Of a stretch of DNA of 64,000 nucleotides, positions 20,327-33,283 are shown piece after piece. Origin of the DNA: Sagittula sp. P11. GTDB lineage: Bacteria; Pseudomonadota; Alphaproteobacteria; Rhodobacterales; Rhodobacteraceae. The stretch spans positions 496,001 to 560,000 of the forward strand of contig NZ_CP021913.1 in the NCBI RefSeq assembly GCF_002814095.1, read 5' to 3'. Below the pieces are notes generated by a model that was not told the DNA's origin, ran no database searches, and saw nothing but the letters and a program-made list of their open reading frames with translations. Within the stretch, counting starts at the first letter, position 1. Each line of letters starts with the position of its first letter. The position numbers and the translations under genes are program-made.

Positions 20327-21619
20327 TCAGTTCATGCTGGCCGGCAGCGCCAGCACGATGAAGGGAAAGGCGATCAGCAGGGCCAGCCGCAGCACGTCCG
20401 CCACGACGAACGGCAGCACGCCCTTGAAGATCGTCGTCAGGCTGACCTTCTGCGCGATGGAGTTGATGACATAGACGTTCATCCCCACCGGCGGCGTGAT
20501 CAGACCCAGTTCCACGGTCATCACGATGATGATGCCGAACCAGATCGGGTCGAAGCCAAGCTGCTGGATCACCGGAAAGACGATGGGGATCATCAGGATG
20601 ATCATCGCCATCGCGTCGAGGAAACAGCCCATGACGAGGAACAGGAGCAGGATCAGCAGCAGCGTGCCATACTTGCCCGCCCCCAGCGTGGTGAGGAAAG
20701 AAGTCAGCTCCTGCGGGACCTGCGTAATCGCCAGGAAATAACCAAATAGCGTCGCCCCGATCAGCACCACGTAGATCGAGACGGAGGTGCGCAGCGCCTC
20801 CACAAGGCTGTCGAGCAGCGTGGTCATGGTCAGCTTGCGCCGGGCCAGGCCGATCAGCGCGGTCAGAAGTGCACCGACAGCGGCGGCTTCCGTCGCGGTG
20901 ACGATGCCGAAGTAGATCGACAGGATGACCGCGACGAACAGCAGGCCCACGGCCCAGACGCCCCTCAGCGCGGCCAGCCCCTCGGACAGGGTGAACTTGT
21001 CGGCGGCGGGCAGGTCGCGCCCGTACCACAGGCGCACGGTGGCCATGTACATCACCACGGCGAGGATGCCCGGAACCACCCCGGCGATGAACAGCTCGCC
21101 AATGTCCGTCTCCGTCATGAAGCCGTAGATCGCCAGCACCACGGAGGGCGGGATCAGGATGCCCACGGTGCCGCCTGCGGCGATGATGCCGGTGGCGGCG
21201 GCGTCCGAATAGCCCGCTTGCTTCATCTCCGGGTAGGCGATCTTGGTCATCGTGGCGGCGGTCGCCACCGACGATCCGCAGATCGCCGCAAAGCCGCCGC
21301 ATGCCCCGACAGAGGCAAGGCCAAGCCCGCCCTTGAACCCGCCCAGCCACGCCCGGCCCGCGCGGAACAGTTCCGACGACATGCCGGAGTTGGTGGCCAG
21401 CACCCCCATCAGCACGAAGAACGGGATGAGCGTCAGGTTGAAATCGGTGATGGTGGCGATGGGCGACTGCGACAGCAGGTTCAGCGCCGGACGCCAGCCC
21501 ACGACACCCGCGAAACCGCCGATGCCGACCAGCCCCATGGCGATCCCGATGGGCACCCGCACCGCCATCAGCCCGAAGAGGGCGACAAAGCCCAGCGTGG
21601 CGATCAGTTCACCGCTCAT
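20327..21619 (-). CDS. dctM: TRAP transporter large permease (DctM)
   Basis: 430-residue membrane protein with about a dozen hydrophobic segments and the DctM-type elements ATNSGMSSELFRAG near residue 76 and a C-terminal LITPPVGMNVYVINSIA region. It forms the Na+-coupled translocation channel of a TRAP importer with DctQ and the periplasmic DctP. The gene overlaps dctQ by 11 bases and is followed by an acyl-CoA ligase gene. Confidence 0.92.
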   Translation of the reverse strand: MSGELIATLGFVALFGLMAVRVPIGIAMGLVGIGGFAGVVGWRPALNLLSQSPIATITDFNLTLIPFFVLMGVLATNSGMSSELFRAGRAWLGGFKGGLGLASVGACGGFAAICGSSVATAATMTKIAYPEMKQAGYSDAAATGIIAAGGTVGILIPPSVVLAIYGFMTETDIGELFIAGVVPGILAVVMYMATVRLWYGRDLPAADKFTLSEGLAALRGVWAVGLLFVAVILSIYFGIVTATEAAAVGALLTALIGLARRKLTMTTLLDSLVEALRTSVSIYVVLIGATLFGYFLAITQVPQELTSFLTTLGAGKYGTLLLILLLFLVMGCFLDAMAMIILMIPIVFPVIQQLGFDPIWFGIIIVMTVELGLITPPVGMNVYVINSIAQKVSLTTIFKGVLPFVVADVLRLALLIAFPFIVLALPASMN

Positions 21620-22175
21620 TGTTGCGTTCCCCGACCGTCTGGTCCTTCAGAAGTTGTTCATCGATACCGTCGAACTCGCCCAGGTCGCTGCCAAAGCGCA
21701 CGATCCGCCAGAGCCGCACGGCCGTGGCGAAGAAGGCCGCGACGGTGCCCAGCCAGATGGCGCCGAAGAACGGCCAGTGCGGCAGGCGCAGGTCCATGGT
21801 GGCGTCCCCGCCCGACATCGCGGCCAGCGTCCGCTCACCGATCTTCCACACCAGAAGCGCGGTGAAGACCAGCAGCACGAACCAGGCAAAGCCGTTGACG
21901 GCCGTCCGTGCGCGCGGCGACAGCGCCTGAGCCAGCAGGTCCACCTTGATGTGGGTGCCGTGCCAGGCGACCGACGCCAGCCCCCAGGCCACGGCGACGC
22001 CCAGCACCAGCCGCGACAGGTCGAAGGCATCCGGAACCGGCCGTGCAAAGCCGTAGCGCCCGATGGCAGACGCCACGATCAGGATCGTGACCAGCCCGAG
22101 AACGATGCCTGCAATGCGTTCAATGACCGAGATGACCCGGCGGACCGGCCGCCCGGATGGATGACGTTCGTACAT
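21609..22175 (-). CDS. dctQ: TRAP transporter small permease (DctQ)
   Basis: 188-residue protein with four predicted helices and the DctQ-like segment VAWGLASVAWHGTHIKVDLL near the middle (about 65-85). It joins DctM to form the membrane unit. The C-terminus is charged (FGSDLGEFDGIDEQ). The gene lies 68 bases downstream of dctP, with a GC hairpin in the gap. Confidence 0.88.
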   Translation of the reverse strand: MYERHPSGRPVRRVISVIERIAGIVLGLVTILIVASAIGRYGFARPVPDAFDLSRLVLGVAVAWGLASVAWHGTHIKVDLLAQALSPRARTAVNGFAWFVLLVFTALLVWKIGERTLAAMSGGDATMDLRLPHWPFFGAIWLGTVAAFFATAVRLWRIVRFGSDLGEFDGIDEQLLKDQTVGERNNER

Positions 22176-22201
22176 GGGGTCTCCGGAGAAAAGGCTTGGC
22201 T

Positions 22202-22233
22202 GGGGCGGGCGCGCAGATGGAGCGCCCTGCCCC
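22202..22233 (-). terminator. Intercistronic hairpin after dctP
   Basis: GGGGCGGGCGC (22202-22212) pairs with GCGCCCTGCCCC (22222-22233) with a one-base bulge. It begins 11 bases after the dctP stop. There is no clear U-run on the minus strand, so 3'-end protection or partial termination is more likely than full termination. Confidence 0.6.
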
Positions 22234-22243
22234 GTCAGTCAGG

Positions 22244-23263
22244 TCAGTAGTCCGCGTCGTACTTCTGCAGCGCGGCCTTGTAGGCCTCGAGGATGGCATC
22301 GGCGTCGCCCCCCTTGGCAGAGACGGCCTGCTTCCACTCCTCGACCAGCGGCTGAGCGGCCTCGCGCCACGCCGCGACCTCTTCCTCGGTCGGGGTGTTG
22401 AAGGACTGGGTGTCGTCCGCCTTCAGCTTGTCCTTGGCGGCCATGTCGTCCTCGGCCCAGCCCGCCGACACCTTGCCCGACCATTCCGGCGTGCAGTGGG
22501 AGTCGATCACGGCCTTGTTCTCGTCCGAGAGGCCCTCGTAGCTGTTCTTGTTCATCACGAGGACCTGTGCGGACAGGTAGAACGGCATGTCGAGGTGAAC
22601 CGGCACTTCCTCGGTCAGCTTGAAGTCGTACATGGCGCCCCACGGGAAGGTCACGGCCTCCGCGGTGCCCTTGGACAGCGCTTCACGCACTTCCGGCGCG
22701 GGCACCTGCACGGGGCCGCCGCCCAGCAGAGAGATGAAGCGCGCGATGGTGGCATGAGCCGGGCGCACGTTCATGCCCTTAACCTGTTCCGGGCTGGTCA
22801 CAGGCACCTTGGAGTGGAAGGCACCCGGCGCGTGGGAATGCACGAAGCAGACCTTCACGTCCGACATCTCCGTCTCGGCGCCGTTCGCGAGGTACCACTC
22901 GTGGATGGCCTTGGTGCCGTTGACGTTGTCATCGGACATGAACGGCAGTTCGGTGGCGGAGTAGATCGGGAAACGGCCGGCGGTGTAGCCAGGGTTCACC
23001 CAAGCGAGATCGACGATGCCCTGCGCGGCCATGTCGTAGTGATCGGGCGCCTTGCCAAGCTGCTGCGCCGGGAAGACCTGGATCGCGATGCGACCCTCGG
23101 AGGCTTCCTGCACGGAGGCCACCCACGGGTCGACGCCCTTCGTGGCGGGCGCGATGGTCGGCGGAATCCAGTGCGACAGGCGCAGCGTGACTTCCTGGGC
23201 TTGCGCCGAAAGCGGACCCACGACGGCGAGAATCGCGGCAAGCGCGACGGACGTTCTTTTCAT
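22244..23263 (-). CDS. dctP: TRAP transporter substrate-binding protein (DctP)
   Basis: 339-residue periplasmic binding protein with a Sec signal peptide (MKRTSVALAAILAVVGPLSAQAQ, cleavage near residue 22; quoted in two parts in the family sense: charged start, hydrophobic core, AQA). The mature protein begins with the TRAP-type LRLSHWIPP and has the ligand-binding FPWGAMYDFKLTEEV region near residue 205. The ligand is probably an organic acid. The gene heads the operon dctP-dctQ-dctM-acyl-CoA ligase; its promoter must lie in the 180 bases upstream. Confidence 0.9.
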   Translation of the reverse strand: MKRTSVALAAILAVVGPLSAQAQEVTLRLSHWIPPTIAPATKGVDPWVASVQEASEGRIAIQVFPAQQLGKAPDHYDMAAQGIVDLAWVNPGYTAGRFPIYSATELPFMSDDNVNGTKAIHEWYLANGAETEMSDVKVCFVHSHAPGAFHSKVPVTSPEQVKGMNVRPAHATIARFISLLGGGPVQVPAPEVREALSKGTAEAVTFPWGAMYDFKLTEEVPVHLDMPFYLSAQVLVMNKNSYEGLSDENKAVIDSHCTPEWSGKVSAGWAEDDMAAKDKLKADDTQSFNTPTEEEVAAWREAAQPLVEEWKQAVSAKGGDADAILEAYKAALQKYDADY

Positions 23264-23446: not shown

Positions 23447-24460
23447 TCAGATCGCCAGCCCCTCGGCGTCAAAGGCATGGACCTTGCCGGGCGCGAAATG
23501 CAGGCCCACCGGGTCGCCCGGGCTGCGCGCCGACTCGCCGTCCGTGCGCACGGTGATCCGCCCCGCATCGCCGCAGTCGACGATCAGGAAGGTGTCGGCG
23601 CCCAGATACTCGATCACGTCCACCGTCCCGTCCATGTGCCCGCCGCCGGGTTCCACCAGCGTGATGTGCTCGGGCCTGATGCCGATCTGCGCGGCCCGCG
23701 CGCCCTCGTCTATCCCGCGCGAGAGGCTGGCGGAAAAGACGTTCATCTTCGGGCTGCCGATGAACTGCGCGACGAACAGGTTCGCAGGGTGTTCGTACAG
23801 CTCCCGCGGGGCACCGATCTGCGCGATCCGCCCGCCTTCCAGCACCACGATCCGGTCGGCCAGCGTCATCGCCTCCACCTGGTCGTGGGTGACGTAGATC
23901 ATCGTGGCGCTCAGCGACTGGTGCAGCTTGGCGATCTCGTAGCGCATCTCGACCCGCAACGCGGCGTCGAGGTTGGACAGCGGCTCATCGAACAGGAACG
24001 CGGTCGGGTCGCGCACGATGGACCGGCCTATGGCCACCCGCTGCCGCTGCCCGCCTGACAGGTCCTTTGGCCGCCGGTGGAGATAGGCGTCCAGCTTCAG
24101 CACATCCGCCGCATGGTCGACCTTCGCCGCGATCTCCTCCTTCGGCACGCCCGCCGCCTTCAGCGAAAACCCCATGTTGTCGCGCACCGACATGTGCGGA
24201 TAAAGCGCGTAGCTCTGGAACACCATGGTCAGCCCGCGCTGCGAGGGCGCCTCGGCGGTGGCGTCGCGCCCGTCGATCAGGATCTGCCCGCGCGAGGTTT
24301 CCTCCAGCCCCGCGATCATCCTGAGCAGGGTCGACTTCCCGCAGCCCGAGGGGCCTACGAAGATGATGAACTCGCCCTCCTCGATGGCGAGGTCCACGCC
24401 TTTGATGACCTGCACGTTGCCGAACCATTTCTCGACGGCCTTCAGCTCTATGCTTGCCAT
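23447..24460 (-). CDS. ABC transporter ATP-binding protein, carbohydrate type (UgpC/MsmK-like)
   Basis: 337-residue ATPase of the CUT1 sugar importers: Walker [10 protein letters not shown] near residue 36, [15 protein letters not shown], Walker [12 protein letters not shown], and a C-terminal MalK-like regulatory region ([10 protein letters not shown] near 245). It is the last gene of a five-gene operon and overlaps the hydrolase gene by 13 bases. It energises the two permeases encoded upstream. Confidence 0.88.
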
Positions 24461-25704
24461 GGGAATCCTTTCGCAGTCGGTGTGGCCCAGGCCAGCCAGG
24501 TGGCCGCGGTCCAGGTGAAATCTCGCCCGCCCGCAGGCGACGCGTCGCGCGGGTCGAAATACTCGGCAAACCCGCCGGTCGAAATCATGCTCCGCGTGGT
24601 GTCACAGAGCGCGGTGGCGCGGCCGTCGTGGCCCGCGTCGCGCAGCCCGAGGGCGATCAGCCAGTTCATCATTGCCCAGACCGGCCCCCGCCAGTAGCGC
24701 TTCGGCTCGAACCCCGGCTGCTGCGGGTCCGCCGAAGGCACGCCGTAGGGCAAGACCCCGGCGATCCGGTCGAAGTGGTCCAGCATCCGTTCGGGCCTGA
24801 CACCCGCGTACCAGTTCAGGAAGGACGCGTTGGAGATTACGCCGGAGTGCTTGCCCGCCCGCATGTCGAAGGTGTCGTAGGCGCCGATCTCCGCATTCCA
24901 CAGCCGTTCCGATCCGGCTTCGATGGCGGCGATCCAGCCCTCGATCTCTGCCGTCTCCGCCCCGAACCGCTGCGCCAGGGCCAGGAGGTCCCGGTTGGCG
25001 CGCAGCAGGGTGAAGGTCATCGTCGGATCGGCCACCCGGAAGGGAGAGACCTCCCGCAGGTGCGCCTCGTCCCAGCCGCAGTCGTGCCCCAGCTTCACCA
25101 GCGTCAGGTAGCGGTCGTAGTCCCAGCGGCGCGGGCGTTCGTCCTCGGCCACATGGGTGGTGTCGCGCCGGTAGTAGGCGTCGAGGTTGGCGGGCTCGAT
25201 GGCGGCAAAGGCCGCGTCCCAGTCCGGAGAATTGTCGCGCCCCGTCTCCCAAGGGTGGCTGACACAGATCGCGCCCTTCTCCCCCCGCCAGTCGAAGAAC
25301 CATCGGTGCCAGTCGGTGAGCGGGCCGACCATCTCCTTCGCCCGATCCGCGGCCGAGGGGTCCAGATCGGCCAGGTACCGGATGAAGGTCGCGGCGATGG
25401 GCGGCTGCGATATCCCCGAGGACGGCACAGGACCAACCCCACCCCAGACGTCCGGGCCCGGGAAATACGTGGGCTCCACCTTGTGGAACAGGATGTGCGG
25501 AACCATGCCGTTCGGCCACTGTCCAGACAGCAGCGTCTCCACCTCCTGCCAGGCGCGGTCGGTGTCGAAGGTGGCGAACCCCATGGCGGCAAAGACGCTG
25601 TCCCAGTTCCACTGGTAGGGATAAAGCCCCGCCGTGGGCACGGTGTACCCGCCCCGGTCGTTGCCCTGCAGGATGCGGCGCGCGGTGGCGTCGAGGTCGG
25701 TCAT
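24448..25704 (-). CDS. GH63-like glycoside hydrolase (MGH1/glucosylglycerate hydrolase type), cytoplasmic
   Basis: 418-residue (alpha/alpha)6-barrel hydrolase without a signal peptide. Motifs shared with GH63-like mannosylglycerate/glucosylglycerate hydrolases are YQWNWDSVF (residues 29-37), [14 protein letters not shown] near 153, [13 protein letters not shown] near 325, and FAEYFDP near 384. An Asp in the DNSPDWD segment and the Glu of AEYF are the likely general acid and base. It sits inside a sugar ABC operon, so it probably cleaves the imported solute in the cytoplasm; marine osmolytes such as glucosylglycerate or mannosylglycerate are attractive candidates. An amylo-alpha-1,6-glucosidase-like or trehalase-like role is the alternative. 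The start MTDLDATA at 25704 is chosen for its fit to the family. Confidence 0.75.
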
Positions 25705-25762: not shown

Positions 25763-26977
25763 TCATCCCTTCACGCTCCCCGCCGTCAGGCCCTTGGTCA
25801 TGAACCGCTCCAGCCCGAGGAACAGCGCCATGATCGGCACCGTGGCGATCACCGATCCGGCCATCAGGTGCTGGCGCGGGATCTCCGACGAATTGAGCGA
25901 GGCGATGCCGCGTGTCAGCGTGAACTTCGACGGATCGTCGAGCAGCATGAAGGCCAGCAGGAACTCGTTCCACGCGATCATGAAGACATAGAGCGACACG
26001 GAGGCCAGCGCCGGCAGCGACAGCGGCAGGGTGATCTTCCAGATCACCATCAGCCGCGACAGCCCGTCCATCAGCCCGGCCTCCTCGATCTCCGCCGGCA
26101 GACCGCGGAAGTAGCCCTGCAGCATGTAGAGCGCCACGGGAATGGTCGTGACCGGGTAGATCATCACGATCCCGGCGATGGAGTTCCTGAGCCCGGTCAT
26201 GGAAAAGGCGATGTAGATCGGCAGCGCCAGAACGATCATCGGCACCATGTAGATCAGCAGGATCGAGCGCGAAAACATCGCCCGCCCTGCGAACCTCAGC
26301 CGCGCCACCGCGTAGGCGCCGGGAATGGCGAAGGCCAGCGTGATCAACACCGTCAGCACCGAGATGTAGAACGAGGTCCAGAGGTAACGGCCGAAGTTGA
26401 AGTCCCGGATCAGCTCCACATAGGACCGGAACAGCCCCCAGCCCTGCGACAGGTCGATGGAGAAGTCGAGCGGGTTGGCGATCAGCTCCGCCTGGTTCTT
26501 CAGCGAGGTCATCACCATCACGTAGAACGGAATGACCACGATGGCGGTGAAGAAGACGTAGCCGAACCCCATCAGCGCCCGGATCACCGCCCCCTCGAAC
26601 TGGTGCCGTGTCAGCGCGCCCGCGGGCAGCCCGTCAAGGTAGCGCACCAGCGGAATGCCCGTGGCCCCCGCCCCGAAAATCAGCGCCGCCGCCCGCAGGC
26701 CCATTGCCGTGTCCTCGCCGAACCGCAGCGCGCCCACTCCCACGGCCGCCAGCGCCAGCGCCGCCGCCAGCGCCGCGCCGTCGGTCAGCCAGCGGTTCTG
26801 CCAACGCACGGCCACCAGCCCGGCAATCGCGCCCACCAGCACCGCGCCCGAGCCCGAGGGCCGCACGCTTTCTCCGGTGGCAAAGCTCATGACCACGGCC
26901 ACGGTGATGAAGGCCACCACCGCCCAGAGCGCGCCCAGAAGCGCGCCGGTCACGTATCCGACCCTCAACGCCTTCAT
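25763..26977 (-). CDS. Sugar ABC transporter permease (MalG-like) with N-terminal membrane extension
   Basis: 404 residues, about 120 longer than usual MalG-type permeases. Residues 130-404 form the normal domain, with EIEEAGLMDGLSRLMVIWKITLPL as EAA loop near residue 297. Residues 1-115 form an extra module with about four hydrophobic helices (for example GALLGALWAVVAFITVAVVM and AALAAALALAAVGVGAL). The function of that module is unknown. Its SD sequence (AAGGAG, revcomp of 26985-26990) is part of the conserved tail of repeat copy 4, seven bases before the start. It pairs with the MalF-like permease encoded just upstream. Confidence 0.85.
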   Translation of the reverse strand: MKALRVGYVTGALLGALWAVVAFITVAVVMSFATGESVRPSGSGAVLVGAIAGLVAVRWQNRWLTDGAALAAALALAAVGVGALRFGEDTAMGLRAAALIFGAGATGIPLVRYLDGLPAGALTRHQFEGAVIRALMGFGYVFFTAIVVIPFYVMVMTSLKNQAELIANPLDFSIDLSQGWGLFRSYVELIRDFNFGRYLWTSFYISVLTVLITLAFAIPGAYAVARLRFAGRAMFSRSILLIYMVPMIVLALPIYIAFSMTGLRNSIAGIVMIYPVTTIPVALYMLQGYFRGLPAEIEEAGLMDGLSRLMVIWKITLPLSLPALASVSLYVFMIAWNEFLLAFMLLDDPSKFTLTRGIASLNSSEIPRQHLMAGSVIATVPIMALFLGLERFMTKGLTAGSVKG

Positions 26978-27056: not shown

Positions 27057-28304
27057 TCATAACCCTTCCTCCCGGCTGATGAACTTGAAGAAGAAGACCG
27101 AGAAGATCAGCAGGCAGCCGAAGACCACCACCGCCACCGCAGCGCCCGCCCCGATGTTCGACAGGGCAAAGGCCTGCTCGTAGACGTTCACCGTCAGGGT
27201 CCGCGTGCCCGCGTTGCCGCCCGTCAGCAGGAAGATGTCGTCGAACTTGTTGAAGGTCCAGATGAAGCGCAGCAGGAACAGCACGCTCAGGATGCCCAGA
27301 AGCATCGGCAGCGAAAGGTACCAGAACTGCTGGAAGGGCGAGGCCCCGTCCATCTCGGCGGCCTCGTACATGTCGCTGTCGATCGACTGCATGCGCGCCA
27401 GGATGAACAGGAAGGACAGCGGGAAATACCGCCAGACCTCGAAGGCGGTGACCATGATCAGCGCCAGGGGTTTCTGCCCGAAGAAGTTGATCGACTGCTC
27501 GGTCACGCCCATCTGCACCAGAAGCGCGTTGGCCGAACCCGAGAACGGGTCGAAGAGCAGGATCCACGCAAAGGCGACGGCGATCACCGGCGCCACGTAG
27601 GGAAAGAGGTAGAGCCCCCGCAACAGCCCCTGTCCCTTGAACGAATGGTTCAGAAGCTGCGCCGCGAAGAGTCCCATCACCAGCGCACCGATGGTGCCGA
27701 AGACGGTGTAGAACAGCGTGACGCCAAAGACCGACAGGAACTCCTCGCCGTCGAAGACGCGGGCGAAGTTCTCCAGCGTGAAATTGCCCGATGTCAGCAC
27801 CGATTGCGCCCGGCCGGTCATCACCGGGTCGGTCTCTTCGATGTCGGTTTCCTGCGCGAGGAAATCGGCGGAGACGGTCACCGGGATCTCCAGCCGCTCG
27901 CTGTAGCCGCCCTCCCAGTCGCCCAGGTCGCAGAAGAAGTCGGCCCCCTCCAGCGTGCAGCGCGGATCGAGGTCGCCGATAACGGTCAGCCCGTCCGGCC
28001 ATGTGTCGGTCAGCGTGACGCCGGTGATCGACTGGTCCTGAGAGGAATTCCGCAGGCGGTAGCGCACAGTGGCCTCATCACCCGCGGCCTCGGGCTTGCC
28101 GCGCAGGTCCTCGCGGATGACCACTTCGGGCGCCCGCAGGTCGCCCAGTTCCACGGGTTTGAAGCTGATCCAGAACACCGCCAGAAGCGGCAGGACGACC
28201 ACCGCCGCAACGGCGAAGAGCGTCGGAAACAGGAGCGACCACGCCAGCCGCGCCTCGCGCCGGGCGAGCGGGCCGGTTCCGGTCGGCGGAATCGCCTGTG
28301 ACAT
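27057..28304 (-). CDS. Sugar ABC transporter permease (MalF-like) with DUF11-like periplasmic insert
   Basis: 415-residue permease. TM1 lies at about residues 22-46, and the normal permease core starts near residue 170 and has the loop MYEAAEMDGASPFQQFWYLSLP (EAA) near 315. Residues about 55-165 form an inserted extracytoplasmic domain. The segment VRYRLRNSS and SITGVTLTDTWPDGLTVIG has the pattern of DUF11/CARDB-like immunoglobulin folds, and Cys116 and Cys125 could form a disulfide. MalF of E. coli also has a large periplasmic loop (P2) that touches the binding protein, but at a different place and with a different fold. Start MSQAIPP at 28304 is favoured; an in-frame Met lies upstream at 28343. 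Confidence 0.83.
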   Translation of the reverse strand: MSQAIPPTGTGPLARREARLAWSLLFPTLFAVAAVVVLPLLAVFWISFKPVELGDLRAPEVVIREDLRGKPEAAGDEATVRYRLRNSSQDQSITGVTLTDTWPDGLTVIGDLDPRCTLEGADFFCDLGDWEGGYSERLEIPVTVSADFLAQETDIEETDPVMTGRAQSVLTSGNFTLENFARVFDGEEFLSVFGVTLFYTVFGTIGALVMGLFAAQLLNHSFKGQGLLRGLYLFPYVAPVIAVAFAWILLFDPFSGSANALLVQMGVTEQSINFFGQKPLALIMVTAFEVWRYFPLSFLFILARMQSIDSDMYEAAEMDGASPFQQFWYLSLPMLLGILSVLFLLRFIWTFNKFDDIFLLTGGNAGTRTLTVNVYEQAFALSNIGAGAAVAVVVFGCLLIFSVFFFKFISREEGL

Positions 28305-28326: not shown

Positions 28327-28355
28327 GGCGGGCGGACCATCATGGCCCGCCCGCC
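28327..28355 (-). terminator. Intercistronic hairpin after the sugar-binding protein gene
   Basis: GGCGGGCGGACC (28327-28338) pairs with GGCCCGCCCGCC (28344-28355) with a single mismatch and a five-base loop. It starts eight bases after the binding-protein stop and precedes the MalF-like gene. No U-run follows, so it fits mRNA stabilisation or attenuation. Confidence 0.65.
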
Positions 28356-28362
28356 CGTGACG

Positions 28363-29709
28363 TCATTCGATCTTCGAAAGCTCGTCGTTCATCGCCGCAA
28401 CGGCGTCGGCCACCTCAATCTGGCCGTCGATGTACTGCCGCACGATCCGGTTGATCGCCTGGCTGTTGATCATCTTCGAGGCCAGCGCCAGCTGCCCCTC
28501 GGTCACCCCCCAGCGCTGCGCCACGTCGAGGCCGCTGACGATCTCGTCGATCTTCGACTGGTCGTAGAGGTCCCCGAGCGGCGCCTTGCGGTCGACGCCC
28601 ACCGGCAGCTCGGCCCATGCCTTCTGGAAGGCAGTCGGGTCGTCGGCGGTGCCGCGGCGGGTCGGGAATTTGCCCTCCGGCGCGATGGCCAGCGTCTGGG
28701 TGTAGCCCTGGTCCATCGAATAGGCGACGAACTCCTCCGCGATGTCGGTGTCCGCGTCGGAGGTGATCCCGAAGTACCGCATGTCGCCCCAGGCCGCGCC
28801 GTCCGGGTTGGACGGACCGGCAAAGGTCGTCACGATCCCGGTCTTAGACGCCAGCTCGGGCGAGGTCGGGTCGTCGTTGATCGTCGGCGGGGCACTGTCG
28901 CGCAGGCCAGCCAGCTCATCGAGGATGAAGGGCGACCAGATGATCATCGCCGCGTTGCCCGAGAAATAGAGCGAGCGCGACTGGTCCCAGTAGAGGTCAC
29001 CCGGCGGCGAGGCGTCGGCCAGTTTCTTGTAGAACTCCAGCACCTCGGTGGTTTTCGCCTCGTCGAGCGGCGCGAAACCGTCCTCCCCAACCGGCGTCAC
29101 GCCGTTGGCGAGGAAGACATGCTCCAGCACCTGGCTCATGAAGGGCTCGTCGACCTTGGTGGCGGCGACGAAACCGTACATCTCGGGCGGGTTGTGCAGC
29201 TTGTCCAGCGCGGCCTCGACCGCGGCGTAGGTGGTCGGCGCTTCCAGCCCTGCCTCGTCGAACAGGTCCTTGCGGTAGAGGATCATCTGCGTCCAGCCGT
29301 CCACGGGGACCGCCGCGTAGCCCTCCCCGAAGGCGGCCATCTTCAGGGCACCCTCGGCAAAGGTGTCCTCGCCCAGGTCCTCGATCACGTCGGTCGCGGC
29401 CTCGGGGTCGAGGATGCCTTCCTCCGCCCAGGGCAGGGACCATTGCAATGTGTGGTAGATCACGTCCGGCAGGTCACCCGCCGCAAAAGCCGCCGTCGCC
29501 CGTGTGCCGAGGTCGCTCTCTTCGACCGGGATGACCTCGACCTCGTTGCCGGTCGCCTCGGTGAAGTCGGCGGCCATCTGTTCCTGCCGGGCCAGCCGTT
29601 CGGGCTGCGTTTCTGTCGTCCAGAACCGTATCGTGTCGGCCTGCGCCGCACCCGCGATTGTCAGCGCAAGCGCCGTCCCGGCCAGCAGCCGGGCTTTGTT
29701 CGTCGCCAT
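28363..29709 (-). CDS. Sugar ABC transporter substrate-binding protein
   Basis: 448-residue extracellular solute-binding protein (family 1 type). The signal peptide ends near residue 24 (ALALTIAGAAQA), followed by the mature start DTIRFWTTETQPERL. The remaining segments (FAAGDLPDVIYHTLQW, WTQMILYRKDLFDEAGL, GNAAMIIWSP) are typical for CUT1 binding proteins. It heads the operon of two permeases, a GH63-like hydrolase and an ATPase. The mature protein is acidic. Ligand: probably a small glycoside such as a glucosyl- or mannosyl-glycerate, inferred from the hydrolase only. Confidence 0.87.
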   Translation of the reverse strand: MATNKARLLAGTALALTIAGAAQADTIRFWTTETQPERLARQEQMAADFTEATGNEVEVIPVEESDLGTRATAAFAAGDLPDVIYHTLQWSLPWAEEGILDPEAATDVIEDLGEDTFAEGALKMAAFGEGYAAVPVDGWTQMILYRKDLFDEAGLEAPTTYAAVEAALDKLHNPPEMYGFVAATKVDEPFMSQVLEHVFLANGVTPVGEDGFAPLDEAKTTEVLEFYKKLADASPPGDLYWDQSRSLYFSGNAAMIIWSPFILDELAGLRDSAPPTINDDPTSPELASKTGIVTTFAGPSNPDGAAWGDMRYFGITSDADTDIAEEFVAYSMDQGYTQTLAIAPEGKFPTRRGTADDPTAFQKAWAELPVGVDRKAPLGDLYDQSKIDEIVSGLDVAQRWGVTEGQLALASKMINSQAINRIVRQYIDGQIEVADAVAAMNDELSKIE

Positions 29710-30056: not shown

Positions 30057-31595
30057 TCAGTCGCGGAGCGACCCTTCTTCGTCGCCCTGCCGCCGCATCC
30101 CGGCCTTGACCCGCGCGCCGATGATCAGCGGCAGGATGAACCCGACGATGGCAACCGTCCAGAGACCGATGGCAAGCGGGCTGTCGATCAGCGTCCACCA
30201 GTTGCCGTTGTCGATGGTGATGGCACGGCGCAGGTTGTTCTCCATCGCGTTGCCCAGCAGCGTGCCGAGGATGATGGGCACCAGCGGCACGTCGAACTTG
30301 CGCAGCACCCAGCCCATGACGCCGAAGCCGATCATCACCATCAGGTCGAAAGACGACCCGGAGATGCCGTAGATCCCGACAAAGCTGACCATCGCCACGA
30401 TGGGCATCAGGATGCGCGACGGGATCATCAGCACGCGGGTAAAGATGCCGACCATCGGGATGTTCATCGCCAGCAGCATGAAGTTCGCGATGAAGAGCGC
30501 CGCGATCAGGCCCCAGACCACGTCCGGGTTCTGGGTGAACAGCAGCGGTCCGGGCGTGATGTTGAGCGCCAGGAGCACCGCCAGCAGGACCGCGGTCGTG
30601 CCGGAGCCGGGCACGCCAAGCGCCAGCATCGGCACCAGCGCCCCGCCTGCGGCGGCGTTGTTGCCCGCCTCGGGGGCCGCGACACCGCGCGGGTCGCCCT
30701 TGCCGAAGGTGCCTTCCTTGTCGACCAGCCGCTTTTCGAACGAATACGAGATGAACGACCCCAGCGAGGCCCCTGCCCCCGGCAGCACCCCGGCGAGGAA
30801 GCCCAGGAACGAGGTCCGCAGCATCGTGGGTATGCACTGCTTGATCATCGACATCGGCGGGTAGAGTTTGCCGATCTTCAGCTTGGTCTCGTCCGCGTCC
30901 GCCCCGCCGTGGCGGTGTTCGAGGAAGATGAAGACCTCGGACAGCGCGAACAGGCCCACGATGGCCACGAGGAAGTCGAGACCGTCATAAAGGTGCACCT
31001 CGCCGAAGGTGAAGCGCGGCACGCCGGTCTGGGTGTCGACGCCGATCATCGCAAGGCCAAGCCCCAGTGCCGCGGCAAAGGCCGATTTCGCCTGGTTGGT
31101 GGAGGACACGCCGCCGAGCGTCATGAACGCAAGGGCGAAGAGGGCAAAGTACTCCGCCGGGCCGAAGAGCAGCGCGATCTTCACCAGCTGCGGCGCGAGG
31201 AAGATCAGCCCCCAGGTCGCAAAGAACGCGCCGACAAAGGAAGCAATTCCCGAAAGCGAGAGAGCTTCGCCGGCGAGCCCCTTCTTGGCCATGGGATGCC
31301 CGTCGAGACAGGTCATCATCGCCGGTTCGTCCCCCGGGATGTTCAGCAGGATCGACGAGATGCGCCCGCCGTACATCGCGCCGTAGTAGACGGACGTAAG
31401 CAGGATCAGCGAGGGCGTGGCGCCCAGGCCGAGCGTGAATGCCAACGGGATCAGGATCGCCACGCCGTTCGACGGGCCGAGGCCGGGCAGCGCGCCCATG
31501 ATCGTGCCGAGGAAACAGCCCAGCAGCGCCAGCAGGATGTTCTGCCACGTCAATGCGATGGCAAAGCCGTCGGCGAGATTGGAAAAGGTCTCCAT
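30057..31595 (-). CDS. tctA: Tripartite tricarboxylate transporter, large permease (TctA)
   Basis: 512-residue membrane protein with about 11-12 helices. The TctA signature region GTIMGALPGLGPSNGVAILIPL lies near residue 30 and the segment LGVPGSGTTAVLLAVLLALN near 325 is the mirrored family motif. It forms the ion-coupled channel of a Tct importer for citrate-like or other carboxylates. It is the last gene of tctC-tctB-tctA, starting three bases after the tctB stop, and is followed by a strong terminator. Confidence 0.93.
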   Translation of the reverse strand: METFSNLADGFAIALTWQNILLALLGCFLGTIMGALPGLGPSNGVAILIPLAFTLGLGATPSLILLTSVYYGAMYGGRISSILLNIPGDEPAMMTCLDGHPMAKKGLAGEALSLSGIASFVGAFFATWGLIFLAPQLVKIALLFGPAEYFALFALAFMTLGGVSSTNQAKSAFAAALGLGLAMIGVDTQTGVPRFTFGEVHLYDGLDFLVAIVGLFALSEVFIFLEHRHGGADADETKLKIGKLYPPMSMIKQCIPTMLRTSFLGFLAGVLPGAGASLGSFISYSFEKRLVDKEGTFGKGDPRGVAAPEAGNNAAAGGALVPMLALGVPGSGTTAVLLAVLLALNITPGPLLFTQNPDVVWGLIAALFIANFMLLAMNIPMVGIFTRVLMIPSRILMPIVAMVSFVGIYGISGSSFDLMVMIGFGVMGWVLRKFDVPLVPIILGTLLGNAMENNLRRAITIDNGNWWTLIDSPLAIGLWTVAIVGFILPLIIGARVKAGMRRQGDEEGSLRD

Positions 31596-31598
31596 GGT

Positions 31599-32030
31599 TC
31601 AGAACCCCCAGGGGCCGCGTGCGAGGGAGAGGCCCAGCACGAGGTGGAAGATGACGTAGATGCCGACCGAAGTGCCGACGCCGGTCAGCACGGCCTCGAC
31701 CGGACCGGAGCCAAGGCGCCACGCGAGGTATCCTGCGGCAAAGGCGGTGGCGAGGACGAAGCCCGCGACGGGCAGCAACTCGGCGTAAAGGATCATCACG
31801 ACGATGGCGGCGCCGATCTCGACCAGGCGGCCAAGCGCGGGCCATTGCGGTTCGGGATCGGGACGGAAGGCTATCACGGCGCTCGAAATGCCGAGGATGG
31901 CGGCAATGATCAGGGGGAAGGCCTTGGGACCCACGGCATCGGAGAGAAAGCTTTCCTCGATATACAGCGCCGAAATGGCGAAACCGATGGCGAGGAGAAT
32001 GCCGAAGACCCCGAAGATGCGATCACTCAT
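31599..32030 (-). CDS. tctB: Tripartite tricarboxylate transporter, small permease (TctB)
   Basis: 143-residue protein with four hydrophobic helices, including VFGILLAIGFAISALYIEESF at the start and FVLATAFAAGYLAWRLGSG near residue 95. Sequence conservation in TctB is low, so the call depends on length, topology and its position between tctC and tctA. Confidence 0.87.
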   Translation of the reverse strand: MSDRIFGVFGILLAIGFAISALYIEESFLSDAVGPKAFPLIIAAILGISSAVIAFRPDPEPQWPALGRLVEIGAAIVVMILYAELLPVAGFVLATAFAAGYLAWRLGSGPVEAVLTGVGTSVGIYVIFHLVLGLSLARGPWGF

Positions 32031-32074
32031 GGGGATCTCCAGTTCGGGATGTCAGGGGGTATCGGGTAAGGATC

Positions 32075-32100
32075 GGGCGCCGCCTCGTGCGGCGGCGCCC
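32075..32100 (-). terminator. Intercistronic hairpin after tctC
   Basis: Perfect 10-base stem GGGCGCCGCC (32075-32084) / GGCGGCGCCC (32091-32100) with a six-base loop, 23 bases after the tctC stop and 44 bases before the tctB start. It has no U-run. Confidence 0.7.
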
Positions 32101-32123
32101 TGTAGAAAGCGCGCGGGGGACGC

Positions 32124-33098
32124 TTACTTGATGATGCCGATTTCCTTGGAGATCGACTGGATCTTGGCCACGGATTCCTCGACGAAGGCCTGGAAGTCAG
32201 CACCCTGCAGGTCTAGCGGCGCGAGGCCGTTGGTCTCCATCACGGCTTTCCATTCGTCGGAGGCATAGAGCTCGCCGATCTTGGAAACCCATGCGTCATA
32301 TGCCTCGTCCGACATGCCGCCCGGAGCGTAGAAGCCGCGCCAGTTGGCACCGATGGCGTCGACGCCCTGCTCTTTCGCGGTCGGCATCTCGGAGAATTCG
32401 CCACCCAGACGCTCGGGCGCGAGGACCGCGATCACCTTGATGTCGCCGGAGTCGACAAAGCCCTTCGCTTCGGAGATGTCGCCGGTGAAGGCCTGGACAG
32501 AGCCCGCCAGAAGCTGGGTCACCGCCTCGCCACCGCCGTCGAAGGCGATGTACTTGATCGAACGCACGTCATCGATGCCATAGGCGTTGGCCGCGATCAG
32601 GACCTTCAGGTGGTCCCAGCCGCCCACGGCCGACCCGCCCGCCACGGAGATCGTGGTCGGATCCGCCTTGATCTGGTCGAGCAGCGCGGGGAGCGTGTCG
32701 ATCTCGGAGTCGGCGGCGACGGCGATCACGCCGTAATCCGCTCCGACCGACGCGAGCCAGCGCACCTGGTCCATTGTGTTGCCCGGATACGCGCCCTGCG
32801 CGAGGCGGGTCGCGGTGGCCGAGGATGCCGCGACGATCAGGTCGTTGCTGTCGTTACGCTTGTTCACCACTTCGGCGTAGGCCACGCCACCGCCGCCACC
32901 GGCGAGGTTGACGACCTGCATGGTCTTGTCGATCAGGCCAAGGTCCTGCAGCGACTTGCCTACCTGACGGCAGGTGAAGTCCCAGCCACCACCCGGGTTG
33001 GCCGGTGCGATACATTCAGGGTTTTCCTGCGCGCTGGCGGCAAGGGCGGATACGCCCACGAGTGCCGCGGCCACGACGAGCCGGGTTGCTTTGATCAT
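32124..33098 (-). CDS. tctC: Tripartite tricarboxylate transporter, periplasmic binding protein (TctC)
   Basis: 324-residue periplasmic binding protein with a Sec signal peptide (cleavage near residue 22, ALAASA-QE). The mature start ENPECIAPANPGGGWDFTCR is the classic Bug/TctC ligand-binding loop, and YAEVVNKRNDSNDLIV and GGSAVGGWDHL follow. It is the first gene of tctCBA and is transcribed divergently from the two-component system over 185 bases, the usual arrangement for TctD/TctE control. The carboxylate ligand cannot be read from the sequence. Confidence 0.92.
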   Translation of the reverse strand: MIKATRLVVAAALVGVSALAASAQENPECIAPANPGGGWDFTCRQVGKSLQDLGLIDKTMQVVNLAGGGGGVAYAEVVNKRNDSNDLIVAASSATATRLAQGAYPGNTMDQVRWLASVGADYGVIAVAADSEIDTLPALLDQIKADPTTISVAGGSAVGGWDHLKVLIAANAYGIDDVRSIKYIAFDGGGEAVTQLLAGSVQAFTGDISEAKGFVDSGDIKVIAVLAPERLGGEFSEMPTAKEQGVDAIGANWRGFYAPGGMSDEAYDAWVSKIGELYASDEWKAVMETNGLAPLDLQGADFQAFVEESVAKIQSISKEIGIIK

Positions 33099-33283
33099 GT
33101 CATTTTCCTCCACATTGGCAGCCGCGAGAGGCGACTGCCCGACATTCCCCGTAGTCACGACTGCCTTTGCAGCCTCCCTCGTTACGGGTTAGACAAAGGA
33201 CGTAGCGAAGGAAGCTGTCGTGAAGCTGTCAAAGGCCGGAAAGCGGCGCGGAATTCGGCAGAAATGAAAGGGACGTCCCGGAC

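Follow-up and report, generated by a model that had tools for sequence, protein, structure and literature searches.

Gene organisation of the locus

The window, a stretch of 64,000 nucleotides from Sagittula sp. P11, encodes a CUT1-type sugar ABC permease of 415 residues with a DUF11 insert (permease F; 27057..28304, minus strand, assigned by translation and Pfam). The preliminary description had placed the gene at these positions, which proved correct, and its strand is the minus one: the plus strand of 27057-28304 is interrupted by stops, and reading from 28304 to 27057 gives the 415-residue open reading frame. A second possible start is found at an in-frame ATG upstream, at 28343. The first transmembrane helix (TM1) covers about residues 20-48 (28161..28247, minus), as judged from a model helix spanning residues 12-48, at low confidence there, and from hydropathy, which peaks at 28-46. 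It is followed by the insert, residues 50-177 (27774..28157, minus), within which Pfam, fold prediction and alignment place the DUF11/Ig-like domain proper at about 58-166, and then by the BPD_transp_1 core, matched by Pfam at residues 208-406 (27087..27683, minus).

The core has its top PDB sequence match in SugA of the SugABC-LpqY type (8ja7_A, E 3.3e-27), and the top NCBIfam match of permease F is to the UgpA type (E 2.7e-28), under that family's cut-off. In the 11 PDB sequence matches of permease F the best stretch runs from residue 170 onward, leaving the insert unmatched, and of the 27 places in the genome that match the protein, the other 26 start at query residue 160 or later. A further variation was seen in the distant orthologues L037, L152, L154, L155, L166 and L168, where some 13-14 extra residues follow the INFFG/INFLG segment of the core; this addition is missing from the permease F of the window.

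The neighbouring genes supply the remaining parts of an importer. On one side lies an extracellular solute-binding protein (SBP; 28363..29709, minus; Pfam, with the start taken at the ATG of MATNKARLL), and on the other a MalG-like permease G of 404 residues (25763..26977, minus; Pfam and NCBIfam), an MGH1-like glycoside hydrolase of the glucosyl-/mannosylglycerate hydrolase type (24448..25704, minus; Pfam and NCBIfam, start at a chosen ATG) and a MalK/UgpC-type ATPase with a TOBE domain (23447..24460, minus; Pfam and NCBIfam). The BPD_transp_1 core, the paired permease, the SBP_bac_1 protein and the MalK-type ATPase with TOBE together identify a CUT1 importer. This arrangement, running from the SBP through permease F, permease G and the hydrolase to the ATPase, is kept in 65 of 80 named loci; nine others have the four transporter genes and no labelled hydrolase, and six are cut or read differently. 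When counting is restricted to the 93 operons with enough DNA and all four transporter genes readable, the window not being counted, the hydrolase is also present in 83. The stretches 30057-33158 and 21609-23263 of the window (both minus) look, from their translations, like subunits of tripartite tricarboxylate (Tct) and TRAP transporters.

At its N-terminus permease G is extended by some 124 mostly hydrophobic residues (1-124; 26606..26977, minus; from alignment and hydropathy), which are poorly conserved, with a mean identity of 36% to the window. A permease G of at least 370 residues accompanies the insert in 93 of 93 readable operons, compared with 273-320 residues in six insert-less loci, and the linker of the insert beside TM1 (P50, L53, D55, L56, R57) is among the best conserved parts. 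Both observations would suit an insert that acts mainly as a structural brace, touching the membrane or the longer permease G and steadying the heterodimer or its gating, without binding the SBP specifically. We nevertheless consider such a brace rather unlikely: both modules come from one ancestor, so that finding them together may count as one event only, the mostly hydrophobic extension would offer few periplasmic surfaces, and the partial correlation between the insert and the extension in the mirror-tree test described below is -0.003.

Probable substrate of the importer

The operon hydrolase scores 353 bits against Thermus TTHA0978 (2z07), which we take to be a mannosylglycerate hydrolase (a passage names Tt8MgH), and 218 bits against the mycobacterial glucosylglycerate hydrolase MhGgH. 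For the family model of glucosylglycerate hydrolase (NCBIfam NF047898), which has an equivalog cut-off of 550 bits, the window hydrolase reaches 313 bits and the Maritalea enzyme 327, both under the cut-off, so the sugar could be glucosyl- or mannosylglycerate. Both compounds are made by phytoplankton. The accessible portion of a study of MhGgH names 13 catalytic and substrate-contact residues (PMC6608630), and the operon hydrolase retains 13 of these 13 active-site residues. From this, and from the neighbouring genes described next, there is a strong case that the cargo of the importer is probably glucosylglycerate and/or mannosylglycerate.

The surroundings of the operon vary from locus to locus. 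A LacI-type regulator is found in the available flanks of 77 of 99 operons and a glycerate kinase in those of five; in the window, tblastn at E ≤ 1e-10 identified neither. In two of the 99 loci (L166:1604-3304 and L208:1-1275) we found a sucrose-phosphorylase-like GH13 protein with both the PYELN and the TETN motif, the two motifs given for glucosylglycerate phosphorylase in the accessible part of PMC10608839. The GH13 protein of L166 matches the sucrose phosphorylase family below its cut-off; beside it, no hydrolase of the usual type is labelled. Among the titles listed in open-access literature searches there was no paper on a glucosylglycerate or mannosylglycerate importer of this kind, and a report on Ruegeria transporters makes no mention of glucosylglycerol or mannosylglycerate (PMC10130141). 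If the assignment holds, it names a likely glucosyl-/mannosylglycerate importer for marine alphaproteobacteria.

Sequence identity and predicted fold of the insert

From the letters of the DNA, the preliminary description had recognised between TM1 and the rest of the permease about 110 extra residues resembling DUF11, with two close cysteines. DUF11 (PF01345) is indeed matched at residues 67-158 of permease F with 27.6 bits, above the curated gathering cut-off of 24.6, and the insert alone scores 31.1 bits; with the predicted Ig-like sandwich, this bears out the domain assignment. The insert is also the one DUF11 match of the window genome at E ≤ 0.001 (E 1.6e-6), and 34 of 41 selected inserts, the window's among them, match DUF11 alone at E ≤ 0.1. 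As to its length, the extra segment is present as described but slightly longer, the loop from TM1 to the core (residues 49-176) measuring 123-129 residues in 150 insert-bearing rows (149 full-length loci and the window, redundancy kept) versus 12-18 in 21 insert-less relatives.

The two close cysteines are Cys116 and Cys125 (27930..27959, minus), a probable hairpin disulfide kept in 150 of the 150 full-length rows; a similar pair follows 21 of 68 ordinary DUF11-like motifs, which were collected with a simple pattern from the loci of other proteins. Since the insert follows TM1 it should be periplasmic, and a cysteine pair would fit an oxidising compartment. The case is a strong one that the insert lies on the periplasmic side and that Cys116 and Cys125 form a disulfide bracing it.

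The insert has the Pfam match and the N and D..P motifs in common with the DUF11 (PF01345) copies of surface and adhesin proteins, but it differs from them in being a single copy within a membrane transporter. Among the phylum matches listed, most other DUF11 domains belong to long frames, of which many have 1000 to 11000 residues, and by analogy the insert might attach to the envelope, whether to peptidoglycan, to a partner in the outer membrane or to some other envelope protein, as a surface DUF11 might. We hold this to be highly improbable, given that Pfam assigns permease F no peptidoglycan-binding family and that the conserved operon consists of transport and catabolic genes only, and we found nothing in favour of docking to peptidoglycan.

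Structure prediction of the insert alone, from 50 sequences, returned a beta sandwich of eight strands and three short helices (mean pLDDT 90.4, pTM 0.79), a confident, though predicted, counterpart of the Ig sandwich that had been proposed. In the full-length model, residues 61-150 reach a pLDDT of 84-90 per block of ten; the membrane part of that model is poor (mean pLDDT 63.3), and for this reason only the insert was used. For the insert, Foldseek ranks a fibrillar-adhesin CLIPPER domain first (E 3.7e-4); after it come cellulose-binding modules, integrin alpha chains and chains from Sec61-TRAP complexes. Superposition with VIA-align gave Z 9.3 and 2.8 Å over 106 residues for the CLIPPER domain (9ifr), Z 9.4 and 2.4 Å over 98 residues for a Sec61-TRAP complex chain (8rjc_6); several proteins unrelated to one another reached a Z of about 9 to 10. 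The modelled fold of the insert is Ig-like, and its structural matches point to no single function. Three weak PDB profile matches between the insert and YicC (best E 0.078) were dismissed as chance.

Distribution and origin of the insert

Genes related to permease F were sought in genome samples that overlap in part and include the window genome. Full-length relatives occur in 32 of 149 genomes of the family at E ≤ 1e-60; in the order sample, 45 of 149 genomes match at E ≤ 1e-45, and in the phylum sample 24 of 398 match at E ≤ 1e-40, the match spanning the full length in 16 genomes and the core alone in eight. A profile of the insert finds 10 of 385 class genomes, always within a permease F-type gene, one of these genomes having a second, weak match in a frame of 3202 residues. 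That frame lies at L184, and a part of it bears a slight resemblance to the permease insert (E 1.4e-4). Low-scoring DUF11 matches in 10 genomes were considered as further permeases and rejected, their frames, of 781 to 2004 residues, being of the wrong size. No relative was found in a scan of viral contigs. Named carriers include Celeribacter, Salipiger, Ruegeria, Yoonia, Maritalea, Thalassospira and Paroceanicella. The insertion is therefore real and conserved across many marine alphaproteobacteria, beyond one genome.

In total 170 loci were compared, of which 149 are full-length with the insert and 21 are core-only. In a tree of 42 permease cores, the 20 insert-bearing ones form one clade (support 99/88), which adjoins Nonomuraea and, next, a haloarchaeon paired with a proteobacterium, none of them having the insert; the 21 insert-less loci fall outside this clade or on long branches. 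This supports a single gain of the insert.

Across 111 orthologues the mean identity to the window is 53% for the insert versus 86% for the core, which makes the insert the fast-evolving part of permease F. Such divergence would be expected of a tolerated, nearly functionless passenger; against this, the insert is lost from none of the 150 full-length rows (selected for being full-length) nor from the orthologue L202, which is 44% identical, its cysteines are invariant, and R83, R85, N86 and S88 are nearly so. That the insert is such a passenger therefore seems very unlikely.

Comparison with the P2 domain of MalF

The preliminary description had further proposed that the insert is an analogue of the MalF P2 loop, not homologous to it, which may dock the binding protein or the peptidoglycan. 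The location agrees well: ENFARVF, from residue 178 of permease F, aligns with KNFTRVF of MalF, from residue 262, directly after P2 (Pfam span 100-260), so that E. coli MalF P2 (PF14785) and the insert sit in corresponding periplasmic loops of subunits of one type, just before the NF-RVF segment. A relation by sequence was sought and not found, an hhalign comparison of 41 inserts with 17 P2 sequences giving a probability of 0.1%, and PF14785 finding no match on permease F at E ≤ 1 and none in the window genome; in the phylum, P2 is matched in 17 of 299 genomes, 16 of them above the cut-off. The two also differ in size, the MalF loop having 169 residues versus 128 for the window permease F in the same alignment columns, and in their surroundings: the extra N-terminal helices of the maltose system (PF20872) belong to MalF itself, whereas here the extra N-terminal region belongs to permease G.

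With the insert alone, MalF chains are absent from the 50 structural matches listed and could still stand lower down; with the whole permease MalF chains come out best, and VIA-align puts them mostly on the core. In the core tree the MalF branch lies away from the insert clade, on a long branch of unsure placement. Neither a non-Ig fold nor an ordinary P2 loop was encountered at the level of sequence, and since the loop is the same and a relation undetectable, the two domains appear to have entered it separately. Of the proposed analogy, the shared loop and the lack of detectable sequence homology stand, and docking of the SBP is plausible, although the mirror-tree test reported below was negative on this point. 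To the preliminary description the present analysis adds the conserved operon, the probable substrate, the longer permease G and the arginine strip treated next.

A conserved arginine strip and the proposed role of the insert

The second strand of the insert reads V-R-Y-R-L-R-N. By alternation, V80, Y82 and L84 would face inward and R81, R83 and R85 outward, forming an arginine strip (28050..28064, minus) that stands out by its conservation against DUF11 motifs. Arginine or lysine occupies the R81 site in 102 of 150 rows versus 4 of the 68 ordinary motifs, the R83 site in 149 versus 3, the R85 site in 146 versus 6, and both the R83 and R85 sites in 145 versus 1, the 150 rows being kin and their counts therefore not independent. 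The remainder of the insert has diverged widely among orthologues; that charges should be kept in a strip while the domain around them evolves fast suggests that they meet a partner. The SBP is the obvious candidate, because a segment of P2 in MalF is stated to contact MalE directly (PMC3150292).

An alternative partner for the strip would be the substrate itself. Carbohydrate-binding modules are the second and third Foldseek matches of the insert (3ndy_E, 6qfs_B), the strip is conserved in a domain with a mean net charge of -9, and the inferred substrate is an acid; on this reading the insert would be an accessory low-affinity site or sensor for an anionic osmolyte, with the arginines turned towards the carboxylate of the glycerate. 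A shared sandwich fold is uninformative on function, however, Ig-like domains with quite other roles scoring equally, and we judge osmolyte binding to be quite unlikely.

We favour, with somewhat better than even confidence, the view that the insert is an arm, acquired independently, onto which the free SBP of an osmolyte importer would dock in the periplasm. Permease F would supply half of the membrane channel in the CUT1 ABC importer, and its DUF11 Ig-like domain, set into the first loop on the periplasmic side and stabilised by the probable disulfide, would work like the P2 arm of MalF with no detectable kinship to it, reaching into the periplasm and holding or positioning the soluble SBP above the channel, possibly with the outward arginine strip as the contact face. 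A contact between insert and SBP can be proposed with moderate confidence, and the strip as its face with weak confidence. In MalF, too, the arm may move about, as P2 rotates towards the membrane in molecular dynamics (PMC3150292). Coevolution was assessed by a mirror-tree test, using partial correlations of distances over 56 non-redundant operons and 300 shuffles. For insert and SBP the partial correlation is 0.067, a value reached by 76 of 300 shuffles, and it is exceeded by those of the insert with the permease G core (0.102) and the cytoplasmic ATPase (0.186). The orthologues are so close that the power of the test is low, and it lends the docking view no support. A comparison with six outgroup SBPs yielded 10 acidic and 5 basic positions that are specific to the SBPs of the ingroup, a list that we do not count as evidence.

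Among the papers listed in open-access literature searches, we found none on a DUF11-bearing permease and no description of such an insertion, for which docking is the most likely role, if an unproven one. If docking is true, the insert provides an independent test of the purpose of the MalF P2 arm, and two unrelated domains doing the same job in the same loop would suggest that some importers recurrently need to capture a free SBP.

How the binding proteins are anchored may bear on when such an arm was gained. The SBP of the window has a Sec-type signal, read by eye, and no cysteine at all, hence no lipobox. In 91 of 93 insert operons the first 45 residues of the SBP give no match to the lipobox pattern, and the two that do match have it within the signal region, probably by chance. 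In comparison, the SBP appears to be lipid-anchored in both of the closest insert-less relatives that are named. In Nonomuraea, the nearest (core 45% identical), where a related hydrolase (34% identical) lies nearby, the start region of the SBP has a lipobox-like LTAC, read by eye, the AASC flagged by the scripted search preceding the likely start; in the haloarchaeal Haladaptatus the SBP has LAGC. These two loci hint at, and fit, an arm gained at the time when the SBP turned into a free periplasmic protein. Taken more broadly, and only tentatively, MalF-type permeases could offer in their first periplasmic loop a site where unrelated SBP-capture arms insert independently, DUF11 having been captured when the lipid-anchored SBP of a Gram-positive-like or archaeal-like ancestor became free, and the arginine strip having become the contact face. 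Three proteobacterial loci (L171, L220 and L221) have neither the insert nor a lipobox match in their SBP, so such an arm is not obligatory.
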